Origin: a virus | IMG/VR virus record: IMGVR_UViG_3300028394_000183 | Location: 1 to 35,849 of that record | Direction: 5' to 3' (one strand) | DNA length: 35,849 bases | Shown here: positions 5,738-27,925 of the stretch, one piece after another | Numbering within the stretch: the stretch's first letter is position 1 | How the letters are laid out: each line of letters opens with the position of its first letter | Program-made: the position numbers and the translations under genes | Notes under the pieces: generated by a model | Told to the model about the DNA's origin: nothing | The model's database searches: none | What the model saw: the letters and a program-made list of their open reading frames with translations, nothing else

Positions 5738-7378
5738 TCAATAACTCCAAGTCCTATCGTCAATCTGCTTATTGGCGTGCGGATCGACAAAGGAGCACTG
5801 GGAAACCAACAGGTACCGTAAACAGTCAATAGGATCCTTGCTAGCTTCGTCTTTGCCACCCTTGGCTGTATATTCCTGCAAGGAATAGATCAAATTTTGG
5901 CAGCGTTCGCTGATGTAAATTTTGGGCGCGTTGAGGGATGATATGGGTTTGCTTTCATCGTAGGAAAACAAGCCATTGATAAGCTGGATGCCGTTCTCGA
6001 TTTCAACGCCAGGGGCTGGCAGAAAAATCATACCGGCATCGTCAAGCTCGCTGATAATTGTGGTAGCTCCATCCGCAGATTGTTTTTCGGCAGCACCTAG
6101 GCGTGGATCGATAAACCGCTCAAAGATAGTTTCCCCTTCCTCGCAATGTTTCATCAATTCGACGTAATCGTTGATGCCTCTCTTGGATCCTTTCTGAGCT
6201 GGGCCTGCTTTACCCTCGGGTCCGGTGCCTGGCAATGCCCAATCGTCGTAGTCGGGCCACTCGCGGTAAATCCACCACGTCCCTGCGGCATCAATCGCTG
6301 CCCAGATCATAAACCAATTTTTGGAGCCAGCGGGATCCAGCACCATGTAACGGGTAACATTGTAATCCACGTTGTTGGTCCACGGCAGTTTTTCGTGAGG
6401 GATGACGTTGACCTCTTTGTTGAACCCAGGAAACACGCTGGTCATGCTCTTGGTCGGCACGCCATAGGCACGGGCAAACACTTCATCTTTGGAGCGACCT
6501 AACAGTTTGTTCCTAAAATCTGAGGTATCGATAAAGCTGTTATCCTCTGTCCAAAAGTAATAAATGATGGTCCCAGGACGCGACAACGATTCTTGAACGA
6601 CAGGAAGCTCGCGGCCTACGAGCGGGGCAAAACGTTTCTCTAACGTGCGAGTCTTGCCAAGGATGTCCTGCACCAAGGGTGTCCAGCCAGTAAGCGTGGT
6701 AAACGTCAGGAGAATGCGCCCGTGGTAGTCGGTAGTGCGGTACTGCAATGTCTCAAACATCTTCTGCGGGCATTCCTCGTCGCACCAAATTAGATGCGCC
6801 TTAAAACCTTCAGCTACTTGGGCATCGGCTTGATAGCTGCGGTAGTTGCTAAACTTAATGCTGCCTCCACGCCTAAATCCATTAACGGGTGGGAGGATGC
6901 AAATGTTGTCGGTAAAACCGTTCTTTTGGGAGTATTGAACGCTGTGATTAAGTCCTTTCTTGGTGGGCAAGTTGCGAATGCCATCGGGCAGGGCGTCCCA
7001 GATCATGCGTTGCTGATCTTCGATGGATCGGTCCTCGTTTACGTGGTAGGCCCGAACCTCTGCACCAGGGATTGTCCCTGCCGCCCAAACGCATAACCTG
7101 CTGGCTATCATCGATTTTGAACTACGATTTCCGCCCAGGATGACATGGTTTGTGTACTTGTCCCAGTTCTTCATCATGGTCTGCCATGATGGGAGGATCC
7201 AACCTGCACCTACCGGATTCATCAAAGCGTCGTGATTGCGTTGCTCACGAAACGTCAAGTACTCGGCCAGCTTCTCTTTAGGCCAACTCATCAGAACCGA
7301 ATCAGGTGGATTAGAAACCCACGGAATTCCAAAGTCAGGTTTAAAATCATCGCAGTAATGAACATCGCCAAGTGCCAT
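5738..7378 (-). CDS. terL: terminase large subunit (packaging ATPase and nuclease)
   Basis: This 546-aa protein pumps DNA into the procapsid and cuts concatemers. The ATPase domain shows a Walker A GGNRSSKS (residues 82-89), a Walker B LIWCDEE (196-202, with Asp-Glu) and a coupling motif TFTTLTGW (225-232). The C-terminal RNase-H-like nuclease begins near VLDPAG (Asp348), continues through FIDPRLGAA, and ends with the acidic D-P-I-D-C-L-R-Y-L motif typical of the family. The length is complete. It is followed by portal, the standard order. The packaging type cannot be fixed from the sequence, although the permuted or redundant ends suggest headful or redundant-end packaging. Confidence 0.95.
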   Translation of the reverse strand: MALGDVHYCDDFKPDFGIPWVSNPPDSVLMSWPKEKLAEYLTFREQRNHDALMNPVGAGWILPSWQTMMKNWDKYTNHVILGGNRSSKSMIASRLCVWAAGTIPGAEVRAYHVNEDRSIEDQQRMIWDALPDGIRNLPTKKGLNHSVQYSQKNGFTDNICILPPVNGFRRGGSIKFSNYRSYQADAQVAEGFKAHLIWCDEECPQKMFETLQYRTTDYHGRILLTFTTLTGWTPLVQDILGKTRTLEKRFAPLVGRELPVVQESLSRPGTIIYYFWTEDNSFIDTSDFRNKLLGRSKDEVFARAYGVPTKSMTSVFPGFNKEVNVIPHEKLPWTNNVDYNVTRYMVLDPAGSKNWFMIWAAIDAAGTWWIYREWPDYDDWALPGTGPEGKAGPAQKGSKRGINDYVELMKHCEEGETIFERFIDPRLGAAEKQSADGATTIISELDDAGMIFLPAPGVEIENGIQLINGLFSYDESKPISSLNAPKIYISERCQNLIYSLQEYTAKGGKDEASKDPIDCLRYLLVSQCSFVDPHANKQIDDRTWSY

Positions 7379-8615: not shown

Positions 8616-8789
8616 ATGAATGCTGACTACAAAGTAATTACCCCTGAGCAACGGTGGCACGCTGGCCGACAAGCAGAGGCGTTCTTTAGCCTGCTGGACG
8701 CTCACGATAAACTTAAACAAGAGCATCTAAAGTTGCAGGAAGAAATGAAAAAGCTCCGCAAGGCTATCAAAACAGGCAAGCCCACTTAG
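8616..8789 (+). CDS. 57-aa coiled-coil protein
   Basis: This 57-aa protein starts 2 bp after the glycosyltransferase stop. Its second half is a charged coiled-coil (about residues 25-50, with LKQEHLKLQEEMKKLRK). I do not recognise it. It shares a transcript with the glycosyltransferase. Its TAG overlaps the TAA of the convergent minus-strand gene in the tetramer TTAG. It is real by spacing and composition, but its function is unknown; a partner or oligomerisation role is possible. Confidence 0.6.
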   Translation: MNADYKVITPEQRWHAGRQAEAFFSLLDAHDKLKQEHLKLQEEMKKLRKAIKTGKPT

Positions 8790-9313
8790 TCCTTAACAGC
8801 CCCTGTCTTTTTGCTGATCTTAGCGTCGATGTCATTGCAGTTACCAATGTCTACGGGGGCTGATTGAATCGTAGGCACGCCCGTCTTGCCACTCAAGCGG
8901 GCGACAATCTCCTCCTTGCTCAGAGAGCCATAGTTGTTAACTTGGATATTAACGTTGGCCCCTTGCGTAGCGTTTAGACCGGCAATGCGTTGCCGTTTGT
9001 CAATCGCTACCGCCAAGTTAAACCCCAGCGTCTGTAAGGGTGTGTCGTCTACTGTTTCCAGCATCCGGTCCACAATCTTATCCGCCAAGGTATCCAGCTT
9101 GCCTATGAGTCTTTGATTAAATTCTTCCACGGTAATTCCTACAATACGTTGCAGAACCCTGCGATCATCAACCGTTACATCACCCAAAGAGGGATGCTTC
9201 TTCAAGCCCAATCCTCTCCCGTCTAGCGTAGCCATCGCCACAGAATTGATTAACCTCTGCGGGCTGTAAGTCGCCTTGCCATGCTTGCCATCAACTTTGA
9301 CTCCTTTAGCCAT
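8786..9313 (-). CDS. candidate small terminase subunit / DNA-binding protein
   Basis: This 175-aa protein has a basic N-terminus (MAKGVKVDGKHGK). A central helical region (about residues 60-95) with VEEFNQRLIGKLDTLADK leads into a segment GFNLAVAIDKRQRIAGLNA (97-115). Some small terminases have a similar A-x-x-x-D-K-x-x-x-x-x-G stretch before a flexible tail. A beta-type VNIQVNNYG and a helical end follow. It lies upstream of the large terminase in the same orientation, separated by the glycosyltransferase island. No clear N-terminal helix-turn-helix is visible, which leaves the call open. An alternative is a general DNA-binding virion or regulatory protein. Confidence 0.45.
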   Translation of the reverse strand: MAKGVKVDGKHGKATYSPQRLINSVAMATLDGRGLGLKKHPSLGDVTVDDRRVLQRIVGITVEEFNQRLIGKLDTLADKIVDRMLETVDDTPLQTLGFNLAVAIDKRQRIAGLNATQGANVNIQVNNYGSLSKEEIVARLSGKTGVPTIQSAPVDIGNCNDIDAKISKKTGAVKD

Positions 9314-12182: not shown

Positions 12183-12201
12183 GCCTTAACAATTGAACAC
12201 G

Positions 12202-12232
12202 GGCCACGCCCCACAGCGTGGCCTTTTTCTTT
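12202..12232 (+). terminator. Rho-independent terminator, perfect 8-bp stem
   Basis: GGCCACGC (12202-12209) and GCGTGGCC (12216-12223) pair perfectly around a 6-nt loop. TTTTTCTTT (12224-12232) follows. It ends the 98-aa/62-aa operon and borders the long non-coding region that follows. Confidence 0.92.
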
Positions 12233-12337
12233 GCCTATTTCCCGCCCATCCTAGGCCTTTTTCAGCCCATCCGCAGGCGCGTCCATGCATTCGCCTAGGC
12301 TCGCTCGCGGCGGGCCAAGGATTCGCGTGCGTTTGAT

Positions 12338-12377
12338 GTAACGTGCGACGTTACGGATGTAACGCCTGACGTTACAT
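12338..12377. promoter_or_regulatory. two tandem palindromes sharing a GTAACG core
   Basis: GTAACGT (12338-12344) and ACGTTAC (12348-12354) are perfect arms around GCG. ATGTAACG (12357-12364) and CGTTACAT (12370-12377) are perfect arms around CCTGA. The two palindromes share the GTAACG core and are spaced like paired binding sites of a dimeric protein. They lie 5 bp upstream of the 13-bp repeat array. Confidence 0.7.
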
Positions 12378-12382
12378 GGCCG

Positions 12383-12534
12383 AGCAATTTGACCAGCAAA
12401 TTTGACCCAGCAATTCGACCAGTGAATTTGATCCGTGAATTCGACCAGCAATTTGACGGACAGATTTGACCCGTGAATTTGACGGACAAATTCGACCAGT
12501 GAATTCGACCAGCAATTTGACCGGCTAATTTGAC
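12383..12534. repeat. iteron-like array, 12 units of 12-13 bp
   Basis: The consensus is (C)CAG(T/C)(G/A)AATT(T/C)GAC. Units end at 12393, 12406, 12419, 12432, 12445, 12457, 12470, 12483, 12496, 12509, 12521 and 12534. Nine spacings are 13 bp and two are 12 bp. The AATT(T/C)GAC part is nearly invariant, while the first four bases alternate between CAGC, CAGT, CCGT and GGAC. The 13-bp period shifts the reading frame at every unit, so the array cannot be a protein repeat. A second short array with the same unit lies at 15368-15432. Confidence 0.85.
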
Positions 12535-12553
12535 CCAGTAGATCAGCTACTGG
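12535..12553. promoter_or_regulatory. perfect stem-loop closing the repeat array
   Basis: CCAGTAG (12535-12541), loop ATCAG and CTACTGG (12547-12553) form a perfect 7-bp stem with a 5-nt loop. It begins exactly where the last 13-bp unit ends. The left arm continues the CCAGT start of the repeat unit. There is no T-tract, so it is not a terminator. Confidence 0.65.
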
Positions 12554-12647
12554 ATAAGGGTCATGCAACATTTTGTCTTGTCTTACCGTTTTACCTCTTA
12601 CAATCTCCCTTTCGTTCAGTCAACCCAACCAGTAACCAAACTAGTCT

Positions 12648-15280: not shown

Positions 15281-15366
15281 GGCCAGACAACGCCACAGAA
15301 CAGGGCTGGCAGCTTGCCGAAACCGAGGACGGGACAGTGTACGCCATTCGTGAGCGTCCCATTTAA
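15172..15366 (+). CDS. 64-aa zinc-ribbon-like protein overlapping the methyltransferase
   Basis: This frame starts inside the methyltransferase gene and continues 86 bp beyond it. It has C-Q-P-C-P-D-C-G, then C-V-G-C-N-E-H-Y-A-E-C-E-C-L-G-P: many Cys/His in a double zinc-knuckle pattern (residues about 12-35), then an acidic tail. I recognise the C-x-x-H-Y-A-x-C-x-C-x-G-P signature from small phage proteins, in which it likewise follows or overlaps early genes. It most likely binds zinc; function is unknown. The 109-bp overlap is large but compositionally sound. Confidence 0.65.
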   Translation: MECVRIVFASDCQPCPDCGEPVCVGCNEHYAECECLGPDNATEQGWQLAETEDGTVYAIRERPI

Positions 15367-15367
15367 C

Positions 15368-15432
15368 CCAGTAATTTGACCCAAGGATTCAACTAGGGAA
15401 TTTGACGCAGCAGTTTGGCTGGCAGATTCCCT
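15368..15432. repeat. second array of the 13-bp repeat, five degenerate units
   Basis: Units 15368-15380, 15381-15393, 15394-15406, 15407-15419 and 15420-15432 are spaced exactly 13 bp apart. Units 1 and 3 match the main-array consensus (AATTTGAC), while units 2, 4 and 5 are decayed. It fills the gap between the convergent ends of the early operon and the minus-strand cassette, 3 kb from the main array. Confidence 0.65.
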
Positions 15433-15446
15433 TTTTCATTTTGATC

Positions 15447-15701
15447 CTAGCAATTCCATGCCCTGCGGCTCCAATAATTTGGACTGAAAATGTTATCCTT
15501 GCCCGTTATCCCACCGGACCGAGCACAGTAGCTTTTCTTTCGTGCTGGCTGATCCTTCTTGATGGACATCTTGGGATCTCCGAAGCGGACGATCTTCGTT
15601 TTCCCGTTTTTCTTGACGAGGACAGCCGACTTCTTCTTTCCGCCAGGCGTCCGCTTTACCTTTCCGTACCCGCTAAACTTCTCTCCACGGTGCGTAATCA
15701 T
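15447..15701 (-). CDS. conserved phage protein with a K-K-D-x-P-A-R-K-K-S-Y motif
   Basis: This 84-aa basic protein contains GKTKIVRFGDPKMSIKKDQP followed by ARKKSYCARSGG and, at the C-terminus, ANYW-S-type residues (SPNYWSRRAW). The pattern (R-F-G-D, then D-P-A-R-x-x-S-Y-x-x-R, then S-x-N-Y-W-S) is a recognisable small phage family, often near packaging or structural genes and of unknown role. It is on the strand opposite the surrounding early genes and is coupled by ATGA to the 78-aa gene upstream. Plus-strand frames over it are shadows. Confidence 0.8.
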   Translation of the reverse strand: MITHRGEKFSGYGKVKRTPGGKKKSAVLVKKNGKTKIVRFGDPKMSIKKDQPARKKSYCARSGGITGKDNIFSPNYWSRRAWNC

Positions 15702-15956: not shown

Positions 15957-16394
15957 TGGTGCAAATGCGCCTTGGACGGGGTGTCTGGGACATTGAGGGA
16001 TCCGCTCGGGCGTGCCAGCTGCACACGGATTGACCTCGGCTCACTAGGTAAACCTACACTCTTATGCCAGCGGGTAATCGTTCTGGCTGCCGATACTGAG
16101 GATCAGAGGCTGATTCCTAACCCACCTTGCGGTGCGGCGGCTTGTGGGCCAATCTCAGCTTGAGGTCTTTGCAGCGTTGCGGGCTGCTTACGCATCAGGG
16201 CGTAAAAACGCCCGCAGAGGTTGCAGTCTCGGCGGGCGTTCAAACTGACTACTAAAATTGATTGCTCGTCTCGGCTGCAACTCCGGTGACAAGGGAGAAG
16301 AAAGTAACGAATTAACAGGGGCGCAAGATTTATTTCAACAATAATGAGAAAAAGAGTTGCAAGCTAAGTTAAAATGTATCTTATCAGTCCCATC
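15957..16394. other. non-coding, structured region upstream of the recombination genes
   Basis: No convincing gene is present; the 63-codon plus-strand frame at 15972-16163 has no coding character. The stretch holds GCAGC/GCTGC (16171-16187), GGGCGT/ACGCCC (16198-16213) and AACGCCCGC/GCGGGCGTT (16207-16240), of which the last two exclude each other. It also holds GTTGCAG/CTGCAAC (16220-16226 with 16275-16281). From about 16300 it becomes AT-rich, as for a promoter. A structured RNA or attenuator is possible. Confidence 0.45.
16204..16240 (-). terminator. minus-strand Rho-independent terminator
   Basis: Read on the minus strand, AACGCCCGC (16240-16232) and GCGGGCGTT (16215-16207) form a perfect 9-bp stem with a 16-nt loop. 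The 3' arm runs into five T (16208-16204). It would stop leftward transcripts coming from about 16.4 kb, where no minus-strand gene is known. It therefore either ends a small antisense RNA or serves as one arm of a plus-strand switch. Confidence 0.55.
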
Positions 16395-16435
16395 GAGAGG
16401 CATTCCGCCTCTCACAACCAGTAAAAACAGAACAC
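16395..16435 (+). promoter_or_regulatory. hairpin leader element, copy 5 (best copy)
   Basis: GAGAGGC (16395-16401), loop ATTCC and GCCTCTC (16407-16413) form a perfect 7-bp stem. CAACCAGTAAAAACAG (16415-16430) and the ATG at 16436 follow immediately. There is no T-tract and no Shine-Dalgarno sequence. Loop length (5 nt), distance to the CCAGTAA motif and A/C-rich spacer match copies 1 and 3, while the stem sequence differs. That suggests conservation of structure. Confidence 0.7.
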
Positions 16436-18341: not shown

Positions 18342-18684
18342 CCTAGATAGGCTGATAGCCTGCATCGAACACAAAGAGGGTGCCCCTTGGAGCAATTCAG
18401 GGGGTGCCCTCCAATTTACTAGAGCGACGTGGAGCGATTTCTCCACTGACCCCTACACTTGGGCCTCGCGGCCCGACAAAGCCCGCCAAATCGCACGGAA
18501 AGCCCTATTGCGGGCCATCCAGAGAATGCATCAGGACGGCATTCAACCCTCAGTGTGGCTCCTCGCCCTGCGCTGGAACTGCGGATACGCAGGAATGGTG
18601 AAGCGAATGGAGGGACGCTGGGACTACGCAGAACACATCAGGAATCTTTATTACGACCATGAATTTCTCAGAACACGCCTTTGA
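18250..18684 (+). CDS. secreted endolysin, lysozyme/transglycosylase-like
   Basis: This 144-aa protein has an N-terminal signal sequence (residues 1-21, hydrophobic core GFLLGSSLAF, with AFSA before VEIP as a possible cleavage site). A lysozyme-like domain follows. It has LIACIEHKEG (35-44, Glu40 or Glu43 as catalytic acid), GGALQFTRATW (51-61, like the G-x-x-Q-x-x-x-x-T-W of transglycosylases), and WNCGYAGMVKRM in place of the Y-N-x-G-x motif. It would cut peptidoglycan after export. It lies with the recombination genes, 13 kb from the holin and on the other strand, which is unusual. A virion or early cell-wall role is the alternative. Confidence 0.65.
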   Translation: MFGYLRALSGFLLGSSLAFSAVEIPITATIDLDRLIACIEHKEGAPWSNSGGALQFTRATWSDFSTDPYTWASRPDKARQIARKALLRAIQRMHQDGIQPSVWLLALRWNCGYAGMVKRMEGRWDYAEHIRNLYYDHEFLRTRL

Positions 18685-19183
18685 CGCCTGCTGCCGAGAG
18701 GCCAAGGCTATTGGCAGACGGCTGAATAAAACTGAATGGCTGGAGGCCATGCAGGAGGCTTACGACTCTTACCCGCACGAAGGGCTGTTGGCTACGGATA
18801 CACCCAAAGTTAGGGCTACCCGCGTAAAGGCAGTAGACGCGGAATGGCTGGAGAGCTTGGAGCAGAATCCAGCCTATGCCGGCATCGACATAAAGCGTGA
18901 GCTAGGGAAAGCCCAAGCCTGGGCATCTGTCCGCAAGGTAGGCGTAAGCCAGATGCGCTTTCTCAATTGGCTCAACAAGGCGCAAGTGTCCGATCGGCCT
19001 ATTCAGTTTAACGGAGCAGGGGCCACCTCGTTCCCCACTCCCTCCGCTCAAACCAGCAGTGAACCCAAAGGCTGGCGTGAATGGGTGCGCGAGAACTCCA
19101 CAGATCCTAGCAATGCAGATAGACCGTGGAACGCATTAGAAGCAGTAGCTCAGAAATACATTTTAACCCAACTACAGAAATGA
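18659..19183 (+). CDS. replication-initiator/primosome-like accessory protein
   Basis: This 174-aa protein has an N-terminal helix with KTEWLEAMQEAYDSYP. A core pattern follows: W-L-E-S-L, then YAGIDIKRELGKAQAWASV, then M-R-F-L-N-W-L-N-K-A (about 60-117). This D-I-x-x-E-L-x-K-x-x-x-W ... R-F-x-N-W-L motif is common at the C-terminus of phage replisome-organiser or helicase-loader-like proteins. Here it stands with a short N-terminal part and a Pro/Ser linker (PTPSAQTSSE). It overlaps the endolysin by 26 bp and is followed by an ATGA overlap. It likely helps recruit host replication proteins; no polymerase or helicase is encoded. Confidence 0.55.
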   Translation: MNFSEHAFDACCREAKAIGRRLNKTEWLEAMQEAYDSYPHEGLLATDTPKVRATRVKAVDAEWLESLEQNPAYAGIDIKRELGKAQAWASVRKVGVSQMRFLNWLNKAQVSDRPIQFNGAGATSFPTPSAQTSSEPKGWREWVRENSTDPSNADRPWNALEAVAQKYILTQLQK

Positions 19184-21315: not shown

Positions 21316-21603
21316 ATGAAAATTGAAATGAAACGTCCTAACAAGCAAATGTGCGAAAACGTCGAAACCATGTTAAATGATTTCGCGAAAATCAGCACCA
21401 TCGCCCGCACACTCAAAACCCAAATGGTAACGGTCTATCGTTACATTTCTTACCTCCAATACACCAAGGTCATGGTCAGTGATGCGGAGCTGAAAATGAT
21501 TATCAACCACAGGAAGGCCCGTAAAGCCGCTGCAGCCGCTCCAGCCCAGTCCACACCCGCACCAGGCGTTACCCATGCCGCTACGCCCGTTCTAGGGGCA
21601 TAG
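21316..21603 (+). CDS. helix-turn-helix-like DNA-binding protein, 95 aa
   Basis: The central part has FAKISTIARTLKTQMVTVYR followed by YISYL (about 24-48). This is a helix-turn-helix pattern (I-A-R-T-L-x-x-x-x-x-T-V-Y-R-Y-I) with basic flanks. The C-terminus is an Ala/Pro-rich disordered tail. It follows a small gap with a TGAGAAAAAG motif shared with the region before 16436, so it may be separately transcribed. It could be a late-gene activator or repressor; the target is unknown. Confidence 0.6.
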   Translation: MKIEMKRPNKQMCENVETMLNDFAKISTIARTLKTQMVTVYRYISYLQYTKVMVSDAELKMIINHRKARKAAAAAPAQSTPAPGVTHAATPVLGA

Positions 21604-21616
21604 GAAGCGGTGTCTA

Positions 21617-21853
21617 ATGGCCCGTCCTCCGTACCTTCCGCCAGATCCTATCTCCGTCTCCTACTTCAAGGGACGGAAGTACCGCGTCCGCACCACCCCG
21701 TGGCACGTCAAGCGGATGCGGGAACTCTACTGGGAAGGCGTCCCTTGCAAGTCCATCGCCCGTCTCTTCAACCTATCCTACAACTATGCGTGGCAAATCG
21801 TTAACTTCTATCGCCTCCGTAAAACGCAAGGTGAAATCCAAGGTCGCGAATAA
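21617..21853 (+). CDS. helix-turn-helix protein, 78 aa
   Basis: This 78-aa basic protein has YFKGRKYRVRTTPWHVKRMR, then a clear HTH-like ELYWEGVPCKSIARLFNLSY followed by NYAWQIV (about 36-62). The pattern G-x-x-x-x-x-I-A-R-x-F-x-x-S-x-x-x-A-W-x-I-V resembles resolvase or sigma-region-4 type HTHs. It begins 13 bp after the previous gene and overlaps the start of the rusA frame. A transcriptional regulator or recombination accessory is likely. Confidence 0.65.
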   Translation: MARPPYLPPDPISVSYFKGRKYRVRTTPWHVKRMRELYWEGVPCKSIARLFNLSYNYAWQIVNFYRLRKTQGEIQGRE

Positions 21854-25702: not shown

Positions 25703-27925
25703 TTAGGCGTGATTTAAGAGGACTTGTTTGATGGTCTGGACGATCATCTCTGGGATCATGGAATTGACGGGAACGCCAGCAATCCGATACCCACCAACAT
25801 CCGTAAGCAAGTCATAGCTAGTCGTAATTCCAGTGACTTTATCAATACTGACAATAGGCACACCATTCATCTCAGCACCAACTACCCATTCACGGGCTGG
25901 AACATCAAGGATCTTATGTGGCCCGCAAACCGTGATAGACCCACCATCAGCCAAGGTGAACTCCAAGAACTCGCTTTCTGGATTCTCAACGTAAGAGCAC
26001 AACTGCTCGATACGCTTAACGGTATTGTCGTAGCCGATGACGTAATCGCCTCCGCGCAAGTCCTGAATCGGTACAGGACCATTAGGCGTGTCGATTTCCT
26101 GATAGCCTGGCATACACAGCATGGCAATTTTCACTGATCCACCGACTTTAAGCAAATCACCAACTAAGCTAGTATTGCTGGCTGATTTAGTAGCAGCTCC
26201 TGAAAGCTCGGCAGACCGCACAGCAGCATCGTAGTTTTTCTGAGCAATTTCCTTGGCAAGCTGGGCGTTTACATTCGTACCATAGACATCCGCAGCATAT
26301 GGGCTAAGAGGATTGAACGTGTTGCTCATCAGATTGCCAATAGGCGAGAAGATGTTTCCGGTCTGGAGATTGGCCATATTCATGATATTGCCATAACTGG
26401 CCTGCATTCCCGCACGGGCCTGATCCTCCCGTTGCTGACGGATGTTTTCACGGCCCATAATCTCAGCACCCACTGCGCCACGTCCCATTACCTGCCCACG
26501 GGCACCATAAGCCTCCCTAGCGGCCTGCTGGGACTGCCTGATGTCCTCTGGGGCAAGAATGCCGGCCTGACGCTGCTGCAAGCGTGCTAGGTCCGTCTTG
26601 TACTGGTTAATGACGCTAGATTCTGTGTCAGTAATGCCCTTAGGCATGAACTGCTTGTACAGATCACCGTACATTCCCATGATGCCGGACTGATTCTTTT
26701 GAAGAGCAGCTAACGTTTCCTCAAGTTCCTTACCGAAATCACGCTTAGTCGTCAGCGTTTGTGCATTGGTTCCATAAGTACCGACACCGCTATTGATGCT
26801 GTTTGGATCAAATGGAGTTACACCAGTGCCTGAAGCCGTAGTTGAAGCCGTAGTTGAAGCTGTAGTTGAGGCTGTAGTTGACGCTGGAGTTGTTCCTGGA
26901 GTGATTCCTGGAGTGACTCCTGGGATGACTGCTGTGTTTACTCCTGGAGTGACTTCTGGGATTGTTTGAGCCGTTACTGGTGGAAGAGTTGTTACATTAG
27001 GATTTAAACCACGATTCCTTGGATCACTGGATGGACCAATTAAACCTTGATTATATAATGCAATTTTGTCTGGGTCAGTATAACCACCATTAGCTGTGAC
27101 TGGTGCAAGAGTTGTCACATTTGGATTTAAAGCACGATTTCTAGGGTCACTAGCCGGTCCAATTAGACCTTGAGTATATAATGCAATCTTATCAGGGTCA
27201 GTATAACCGCCTTGAGCTGTTACTGGAGCAAGAGTTGTGATACCAGAAGACGAAGTTGCACTTGAACCAGAAGATGGAGCGACATAACCAGGATTAACTC
27301 CTGACATCAATGTATTCATCAGACTTGCCGCTTCCGCGGCAGTCATTTCGCCATCGTTAATTTTTGTTCCAGTTACTTCTACTTGTGGTAGATTTACTGT
27401 TGCTGGAGGATTAATTAGACCAACAGATGGAAGGGTGCCGCTTGAGTAACCTGCTGGCCCAATAAGACCCTGGTTGAATAAGTTCTGATTAGTTGCATCA
27501 CTATAACCACCAGCACCAGCCTCTACTTGTTGTCCAATGGGAACTTCTACCCTAGGAAGCGATACTGTTTCTGGAGGGGCAATTGGTTTTGATTCTGATC
27601 GACCGCTTTCGTAACCTTCTGGGCCGATACGACCTGCTTTATAATCTGCAATATTAACTGGATCCTTATATCCACCATCATCGGTAGGAGGTTGAAAAAC
27701 TACAGTGCCAGAAACAGGCGTACTGCCACCGCCACCAGGAACATAACCACCATAAAAAATGTTTCCGCTAGATAGACCTGCGTTGTACAAATCTAAATCA
27801 TTCAAATTGTTGAATCCAGGAGGTTCATTAACATTGAATGGAGGGAGCATACTGATTGGATCTTCACCACCACTACCATCCGCGCCAATGGTGCCATACT
27901 GAAATATTCCTGGTTTATATGCCAT
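25703..27925 (-). CDS. virion protein with C-terminal Hint (intein/hedgehog-like) domain, 740 aa
   Basis: Residues 1-350 are low-complexity, with G-L-I-G-P repeats (two 41-aa tandem copies) and a T-T-A-S repeat. Residues about 380-600 are helical and Gln-rich (EIMGRENIRQQREDQARAGM). At residue 604 a Hint domain starts: C-M-P-G-Y-Q-E-I-D-T, then IQDLRGGDYVIGYD, T-V-C-G-P-H (His670), YDLLTDVGGYRIAGVPVN with Asn721, then Ser722. The nucleophile Cys, the His, the terminal Asn and a following Ser are present, but the His before Asn is Val. Self-cleavage or splicing could shorten the protein to 603 residues, with 19 residues after Asn. It lies in the ejection/tail cluster. Confidence 0.72.
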   Translation of the reverse strand: MAYKPGIFQYGTIGADGSGGEDPISMLPPFNVNEPPGFNNLNDLDLYNAGLSSGNIFYGGYVPGGGGSTPVSGTVVFQPPTDDGGYKDPVNIADYKAGRIGPEGYESGRSESKPIAPPETVSLPRVEVPIGQQVEAGAGGYSDATNQNLFNQGLIGPAGYSSGTLPSVGLINPPATVNLPQVEVTGTKINDGEMTAAEAASLMNTLMSGVNPGYVAPSSGSSATSSSGITTLAPVTAQGGYTDPDKIALYTQGLIGPASDPRNRALNPNVTTLAPVTANGGYTDPDKIALYNQGLIGPSSDPRNRGLNPNVTTLPPVTAQTIPEVTPGVNTAVIPGVTPGITPGTTPASTTASTTASTTASTTASGTGVTPFDPNSINSGVGTYGTNAQTLTTKRDFGKELEETLAALQKNQSGIMGMYGDLYKQFMPKGITDTESSVINQYKTDLARLQQRQAGILAPEDIRQSQQAAREAYGARGQVMGRGAVGAEIMGRENIRQQREDQARAGMQASYGNIMNMANLQTGNIFSPIGNLMSNTFNPLSPYAADVYGTNVNAQLAKEIAQKNYDAAVRSAELSGAATKSASNTSLVGDLLKVGGSVKIAMLCMPGYQEIDTPNGPVPIQDLRGGDYVIGYDNTVKRIEQLCSYVENPESEFLEFTLADGGSITVCGPHKILDVPAREWVVGAEMNGVPIVSIDKVTGITTSYDLLTDVGGYRIAGVPVNSMIPEMIVQTIKQVLLNHA
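25763..26116 (-). other. Hint domain segment (118 residues)
   Basis: This is the part of the 740-aa gene from the putative N-terminal nucleophile Cys604 (codon 26114-26116) to Asn721 (codon 25763-25765). The A-type start (C-x-x-x-x-x-I-D-T-P-x-G), the R-G-G-D-Y-V loop, the block-B-like C-G-P-H and the F-like Y-D-L-x-T-D-x-x-x-Y are in the expected order. No endonuclease insertion is present, so it is a minimal Hint. Confidence 0.7.
26832..26886 (-). repeat. 12-bp tandem repeat encoding Thr-Thr-Ala-Ser
   Basis: About four and a half units of GAAGCCGTAGTT or a close variant encode a (T-T-A-S) stretch in the 740-aa protein. G-V-T-P-G type repeats precede it. It is a flexible linker and a likely length-variable site by slippage. 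Confidence 0.75.
26991..27236 (-). repeat. two tandem 123-bp repeats in the 740-aa gene
   Basis: Copies 26991-27113 and 27114-27236 encode 41-residue units. Each begins V/I-T-T-L-A-P-V-T-A and contains GGYTDPDKIALY and Q-G-L-I-G-P, then D-P-R-N-R and a final L-N-P-N. Degenerate G-L-I-G-P units lie further towards the N-terminus. The repeats are a probable stalk or spacer. Confidence 0.8.

Follow-up and report, generated by a model that had tools for sequence, protein, structure and literature searches.

Paired same-strand arrays of a TTGACC-like repeat in an uncultured phage group: candidate iteron-like origin or early-gene control sites

Introduction

How does a phage with no recognizable DNA polymerase of its own start to copy its genome? 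The question is raised by a 35,849-nucleotide stretch of viral DNA (IMG/VR record IMGVR_UViG_3300028394_000183, positions 1–35,849; hereafter the window), in which an initial annotation picked out a repeat array at 12338–12553 as a candidate iteron origin served by host replication. The window belongs to a phage group that is known here from environmental contigs only. Phage SPP1 offers a model for such an arrangement: it has two origins, each made of direct repeats and an AT-rich unwinding element, and both are bound by one initiator (PMC6316719). Here, we report that the repeats belong to a system of two arrays shared with related phages, and that these arrays probably serve a phage protein either as the point at which it initiates DNA copying or in the control of early genes.

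Genomes compared

Relatives were taken from IMG/VR and were found through their terminase, exonuclease, single-stranded DNA-binding and HTH proteins and through the protein encoded at 18659. They are contigs of uncultured phages, some of which may be incomplete, and the near-identical contigs G017/G018 and G020/G022 are not independent lineages. In a search for named relatives, none of the phage or plasmid records matched the window at the DNA level. The nearest terminase match is that of phage C75C1 (35%), which has a replication gene set different from that of the window.

Replication genes and translation signals

Among the proteins scanned, a set that included only part of the small ORFs, there were no polymerase-, helicase- or primase-like matches, so host replication would need to be recruited; the earlier statement that the phage encodes no recognizable polymerase holds for this set. 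The same scan gave no member of a known initiator family (Rep or O-like) and no counterpart of the SPP1 gp38 origin-binding protein, gp39 loader or gp40 helicase. The initial annotation had instead proposed one initiator-like protein:

18659–19183, plus strand: 174-aa protein, conserved in array-bearing phages

This description found no support. The protein matches nothing in PHROG, NCBIfam, PDB or the phage records, its only Pfam match lies below the cut-off, and its predicted structure (pLDDT 71) matches no fold.

A Shine–Dalgarno-like motif precedes only 5 of 43 likely gene starts, and many leaders are rich in A (CCAGTAAAAACA); both features point to a host phylum that uses Shine–Dalgarno-independent initiation. 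Elsewhere in the window, 12-bp and 123-bp tandem repeats (26831–27238) lie within the gene of a 740-aa protein (25703–27925) that has a weak Hint-domain match.

Two directional arrays

12386–12539, plus strand: array 1, 12 direct units of AATT(T/C)GAC(C) at 13/12-bp spacing
15361–15425 (about), plus strand: array 2, five 13-bp units, of which three are close and two degenerate, followed by a pyrimidine tract

The 12 units first described were recovered at the same positions, with successive gaps from 12386 of 13, 13, 13, 13, 12, 13, 13, 13, 13, 12 and 13 bp (nine of 13 bp, two of 12 bp), and they go beyond what shuffled sequence produces. The core AATTYGAC occurs 14 times in the window, always on the plus strand, against 2.5 copies expected and a shuffle maximum of six; the copies are concentrated in the two arrays, ten of them within one 150-bp array. 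At a period of 26, the intergenic stretch holding array 1 matches itself at 94 of 150 positions (shuffles, 53.9 ± 2.8; maximum, 69). In a 13-column profile built from 65 units of four close relatives, A-A-T-T-Y-G-A-C-C is invariant or near-invariant and the last positions are nearly random.

Array 2 had been overlooked; it shows in full once the window is aligned with its relatives. Here and in the close relatives it lies between convergent genes rather than 5′ of a gene; in the window it sits at the 3′ ends of two operons. The repeat observation is real and larger than first noted, comprising a second array and arrays in relatives. Beside array 2, an 84-aa protein (15447–15701, minus strand) has at least 588 relatives among viral contigs.

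An RNA-level element was considered for array 1 and rejected, as the relatives share no consistent structure (mononucleotide shuffles) and Rfam gave no match; in the window, folding of the array 1 RNA exceeds dinucleotide shuffles (z −2.9).

Arrays in relatives

The close relatives L091, L090 and L084 carry both arrays at 13-bp spacing. Three further, more distant lineages carry their arrays at nearby sites and differ in spacing: C1 (L093/L075) has 15-bp spacing and the core TTTGATCC; C2 (L040, L051, L060 and L392) alternates between 14 and 15 bp with the core TTTTACCCC, and L051 and L060 have array 1 alone within the stretches read; C3 has 8–10-bp spacing and the core GCTTGACC, with 31 units in L094 and 16 in L369. 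A TTGACC-like core is thus common to the arrays and the spacing depends on the lineage. Each of the nine loci counted has two arrays on the same strand, 0.6–2.8 kb apart, with zero copies on the opposite strand. The remark that a 13-bp period is not a whole helical turn was upheld: helical phasing of the units is absent at periods of 13, 15, 14/15 and 8–10 bp alike.

The initial annotation had suggested searching relatives for this array at the matching position, and several lineages have it. Group B (L086, L087, L102 and L035) has only irregular TTxACCCG-like motifs at the array site, six to nine on the plus strand against about one expected, and no such array was seen in G030.

Neutral or chance tandem repetition would leave repeats of no function. 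Short TTTGACC arrays do occur in unrelated genomes and phages beside unrelated neighbours, and the C3 arrays bear signs of recent slippage; however, place, strand, core and pairing are kept across lineages while the units have diverged outside the core, which makes this explanation barely plausible. A widespread mobile element was rejected separately, because the TTTGACC arrays of unrelated genomes adjoin unrelated genes and, in an uncontrolled scan, resemble independent repeats.

Two further observations concern other sites. In group B, a tRNA-like sequence, seen by eye, lies 3′ of the XRE regulator gene (L086, about 6500–6570; also L087, L102 and L035). In two phages unrelated to the window, L111 (about 5817) and L221 (about 4473), 10–11-bp repeats of the GGTCAAAA type lie in a predicted ORF, which recalls the lambda O gene.

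Surroundings of array 1

12201–12229, plus strand: intrinsic-terminator-like hairpin closing the upstream operon, 9-pair stem and then a T run
12223–12635, unstranded: conserved noncoding island containing array 1, a single blastn block against L091 (80%), from alignment
12338–12375, unstranded: two tandem dyads GTAACG-N5-CGTTAC, 21 bp apart, perfect arms, lineage-specific
12533–12551 (about), unstranded: perfect 7-bp stem with a 5-base loop directly 3′ of the last unit, CCAGTAG-ATCAG-CTACTGG
12552–12647, unstranded: less stable stretch separating array 1 from the gene that follows, a possible unwinding element or leader

The island, of about 410 bp, aligns to L091 while the genes on both sides are unmatched by blastn, and the next gene 3′ of array 1 is not constant among close relatives. 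Judged by this alignment, a noncoding island that outlives its neighbour genes is most readily interpreted as a cis-acting site.

Not every element of the island is equally conserved. The two perfect GTAACG-core palindromes (12338–12354 and 12359–12375) are present as first described and are the sole tandem identical pair among the 97 dyads of their class in the window (one-copy expectation, 0.002). Among array-bearing relatives they are confined to the window and its closest relative, L091, and so fall outside the conserved core; they are probably operators. The perfect stem-loop that follows the repeats was likewise found, and is only partly conserved: its strong form is limited to the window, L091 and L093, the versions in L084 and L090 are imperfect, and it was rejected as a conserved part.

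The DNA that follows had been called AT/pyrimidine-rich. Its lower stability stands, but the AT content is a modest 60%, compared with 40% on the 5′ side. The least stable 50 bp to the right of array 1 are in the top 3.8% of the window, and the corresponding segment is in about the top 1.3–10.4% of each locus in every lineage measured. The DNA 5′ of array 1 in relatives is GC-rich and often repetitive. The unstable flank of array 2 is less uniform across loci than that of array 1. Long GC-rich repeats of the GGCGA type lie directly 5′ of array 1 in L094 (1767–1964) and L369 (1883–2077).

Possible roles in gene control, packaging or recombination

The position of array 1 raises the possibility that the arrays are operators or enhancers, at which a regulator binds cooperatively and controls transcription or leader translation of rightward early genes. 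Array 1 lies 5′ of a rightward gene in every relative read, and in C2 it stops about 20 bp short of the ATG; array 2 of C1 and C2 extends right up to the start codon of a gene for an XRE regulator or a methyltransferase; in the window, a hairpin-terminated operon precedes array 1; and the last TTGACC and a GATAAG at 17 bp resemble a weak promoter. Nevertheless, a promoter scan gave no sigma-70-type site 3′ of array 1, and the −10 position varies among relatives. A promoter element would not explain array 2 at the 3′ ends of convergent genes in the window, the gene 3′ of array 1 varies between close relatives, and the XRE regulator at array 2 of C1 is absent from the 13-bp group, whose arrays persist. 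Operator arrays are, on this balance, the main rival to an origin and a serious possibility, though less likely than not; if this is what they are, they mark control points of early genes.

Short direct-repeat arrays are also known at packaging and partition sites. A pac- or cos-like site for a small terminase subunit, or a centromere-like site for a partition protein, would draw on a conserved gene (8786–9313) that adjoins the large terminase gene and lies 3 kb away in the lineages covering it. Its product was identified by none of the libraries and is possibly the small subunit. However, no ParA-like or ParB-like protein was found among those scanned, both arrays are far from the terminase gene, and contig breakpoints vary between relatives and do not cluster at the array. 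We consider such a site improbable.

The interval between the arrays (0.6–2.8 kb) holds varying small genes, and in the alignments with L091, L090 and L084 homology resumes each time at 15361, the left edge of array 2. The arrays could on these grounds be recombination anchors for the exchange of short genes between or beside them. That role appears quite remote, since selection maintains the core while the spacers drift, something that homologous exchange does not require, and the analysis found no site-specific recombinase. Any exchange at the arrays may simply be a by-product.

Candidate array-binding protein

21617–21853, plus strand: 78-aa HTH protein, best candidate array binder

In profile searches, the family of this protein occurs in all array lineages with a checkable early region (13, 15, 14/15 and 8–10 bp), including L392, a 14/15-bp relative from the same contig as L418; the match is weak in L094 and L369 of the 8–10-bp lineage. 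In the relatives read, its gene lies between the 18659 gene and a RusA-like gene. The predicted model is an HTH of three helices. The folds closest to it are those of gamma-delta resolvase, ArdK and IstA, each a weak match by E-value; the ArdK match is a structure bound to direct-repeat DNA. Resolvase-type HTHs made of a single domain are known to recognize short sites. The size of the protein can be set against the repeat period at three points, too few for a trend to be read: 78 aa for 13 bp, 67 aa for 15 bp and 52 aa for 8–10 bp. This protein is, from its distribution and predicted fold, the likeliest array binder, and we infer that it reads the TTGACC core. On the other hand, group B and G030 keep both it and the 18659 protein without a regular array, and the group B genes argue against a strict link between gene and array.

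Three other candidates were rejected: the 13-bp group lacks the XRE regulator, the 8–10-bp group lacks the 17917 protein, and the HTH protein at 21316 occurs nowhere outside the 13-bp group.

Replication-origin reading

The reading that we favour, at a little short of even probability, is that the arrays are same-strand, iteron-like sites for a phage DNA-binding protein, with array 1 as the replication origin and array 2 as a second, smaller site. The 78-aa HTH protein or a partner would occupy the TTGACC cores side by side; the bound protein would strain the duplex, so that the less stable DNA to the right of array 1 opens; and the opened DNA would admit loading of the host helicase and polymerase.

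Several lines of evidence favour an origin. The anatomy fits, with repeats followed by less stable DNA in two copies, and the phage has no polymerase, helicase or primase match among the proteins scanned. The arrays are directional, with a near-invariant core and random spacers, and in the loci counted they come as a same-strand pair. The conserved noncoding island that holds array 1 is set amid genes that turn over in close relatives, and in the lineages measured array 1 has GC- or repeat-rich DNA before it and easily melted DNA after it. Finally, the HTH family co-occurs with the arrays, and SPP1 provides a precedent. An origin in the style of SPP1 oriL/oriR is more likely than an operator array.

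Other results weaken it. Third-position skew across six relatives gave no consistent replication signal, and a difference between leftward gene blocks of the window was rejected as replication skew since it was not repeated in G003, G004 or G022; the GC-skew check that had been proposed lends the origin no support. No DnaA box lies near array 1, the two consensus boxes of the window (9809 and 25277) being at chance level. The lack of phasing and of a recognized initiator, the group B and G030 genes without a regular array and the 60% AT of the unstable stretch in the window also count against an origin, as does the second array of C1 and C2, which stops just a few bases from a start codon, like regulatory DNA. 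The proposed iteron origin is partly supported: the repeats, their second copy, the less stable flank and the relatives fit it, and an initiator, a consistent skew, nearby DnaA boxes and phasing were not found.

Farther to the right, a noncoding segment 5′ of the exonuclease operon (16199–16431) is 98% identical to L084, compared with 87–89% in its flanks. It is a possible promoter or rival origin.

We think it unlikely, though worth stating, that the arrays represent an undescribed class of phage origin: paired same-strand TTGACC-like arrays served by a single-domain, resolvase-like HTH protein of 52–78 residues, in which the spacing has drifted between 8–10 and 15 bp while the core and paired layout were kept. 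Such a class would not be bound by the helical-phasing rule. Should the arrays be origins, they would show where replication begins throughout an uncultured phage group, and their different spacings of one kind of site would form a natural series with which the need for iteron phasing can be tested.

Comparison with known systems

Like mycobacteriophage L5-type stoperators, which are bound by a monomeric repressor, the units are asymmetric sites on a 13-bp scale. However, stoperators are spread across the phage genome (PMC9283540); the sites of the window are not dispersed, the core copies lying in two arrays. The lambda origin has four iterons, and at each of them an O dimer binds a near-perfect inverted repeat of 19 bp (PMC5043065, PMC10797057). 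Its repeated sites also adjoin AT-rich DNA, and lambda recruits the host helicase, but the window phages have directional 8-bp cores in up to 31 copies.

The iterons of plasmids are, as a rule, in phase with the DNA helix; they are bound by Rep proteins with winged-helix domains and are accompanied by DnaA boxes (PMC5043065, PMC10797057). The window phages share with the origins of RK2, F, R6K and P1 several same-strand direct repeats beside less stable DNA. They differ in their spacing (13, 15, 14/15 or 8–10 bp), and no Rep and no nearby DnaA box were found. As neither phasing nor a known initiator nor nearby DnaA boxes could be found, we class the arrays as candidate iteron-like sites rather than as an iteron-plasmid or SPP1-type origin.

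In SPP1, the two sites are about 13 kb apart, one lies within the initiator gene, and the phage encodes its own helicase and loader; in the window phage, the arrays are noncoding and 0.6–2.8 kb apart, and gp38, helicase and loader are not recognizable. Even so, the likeness to SPP1 oriL/oriR, the sites of gp38, lies in the layout: two separate repeat sites per phage genome; SPP1 recruits the host replisome (PMC6316719).
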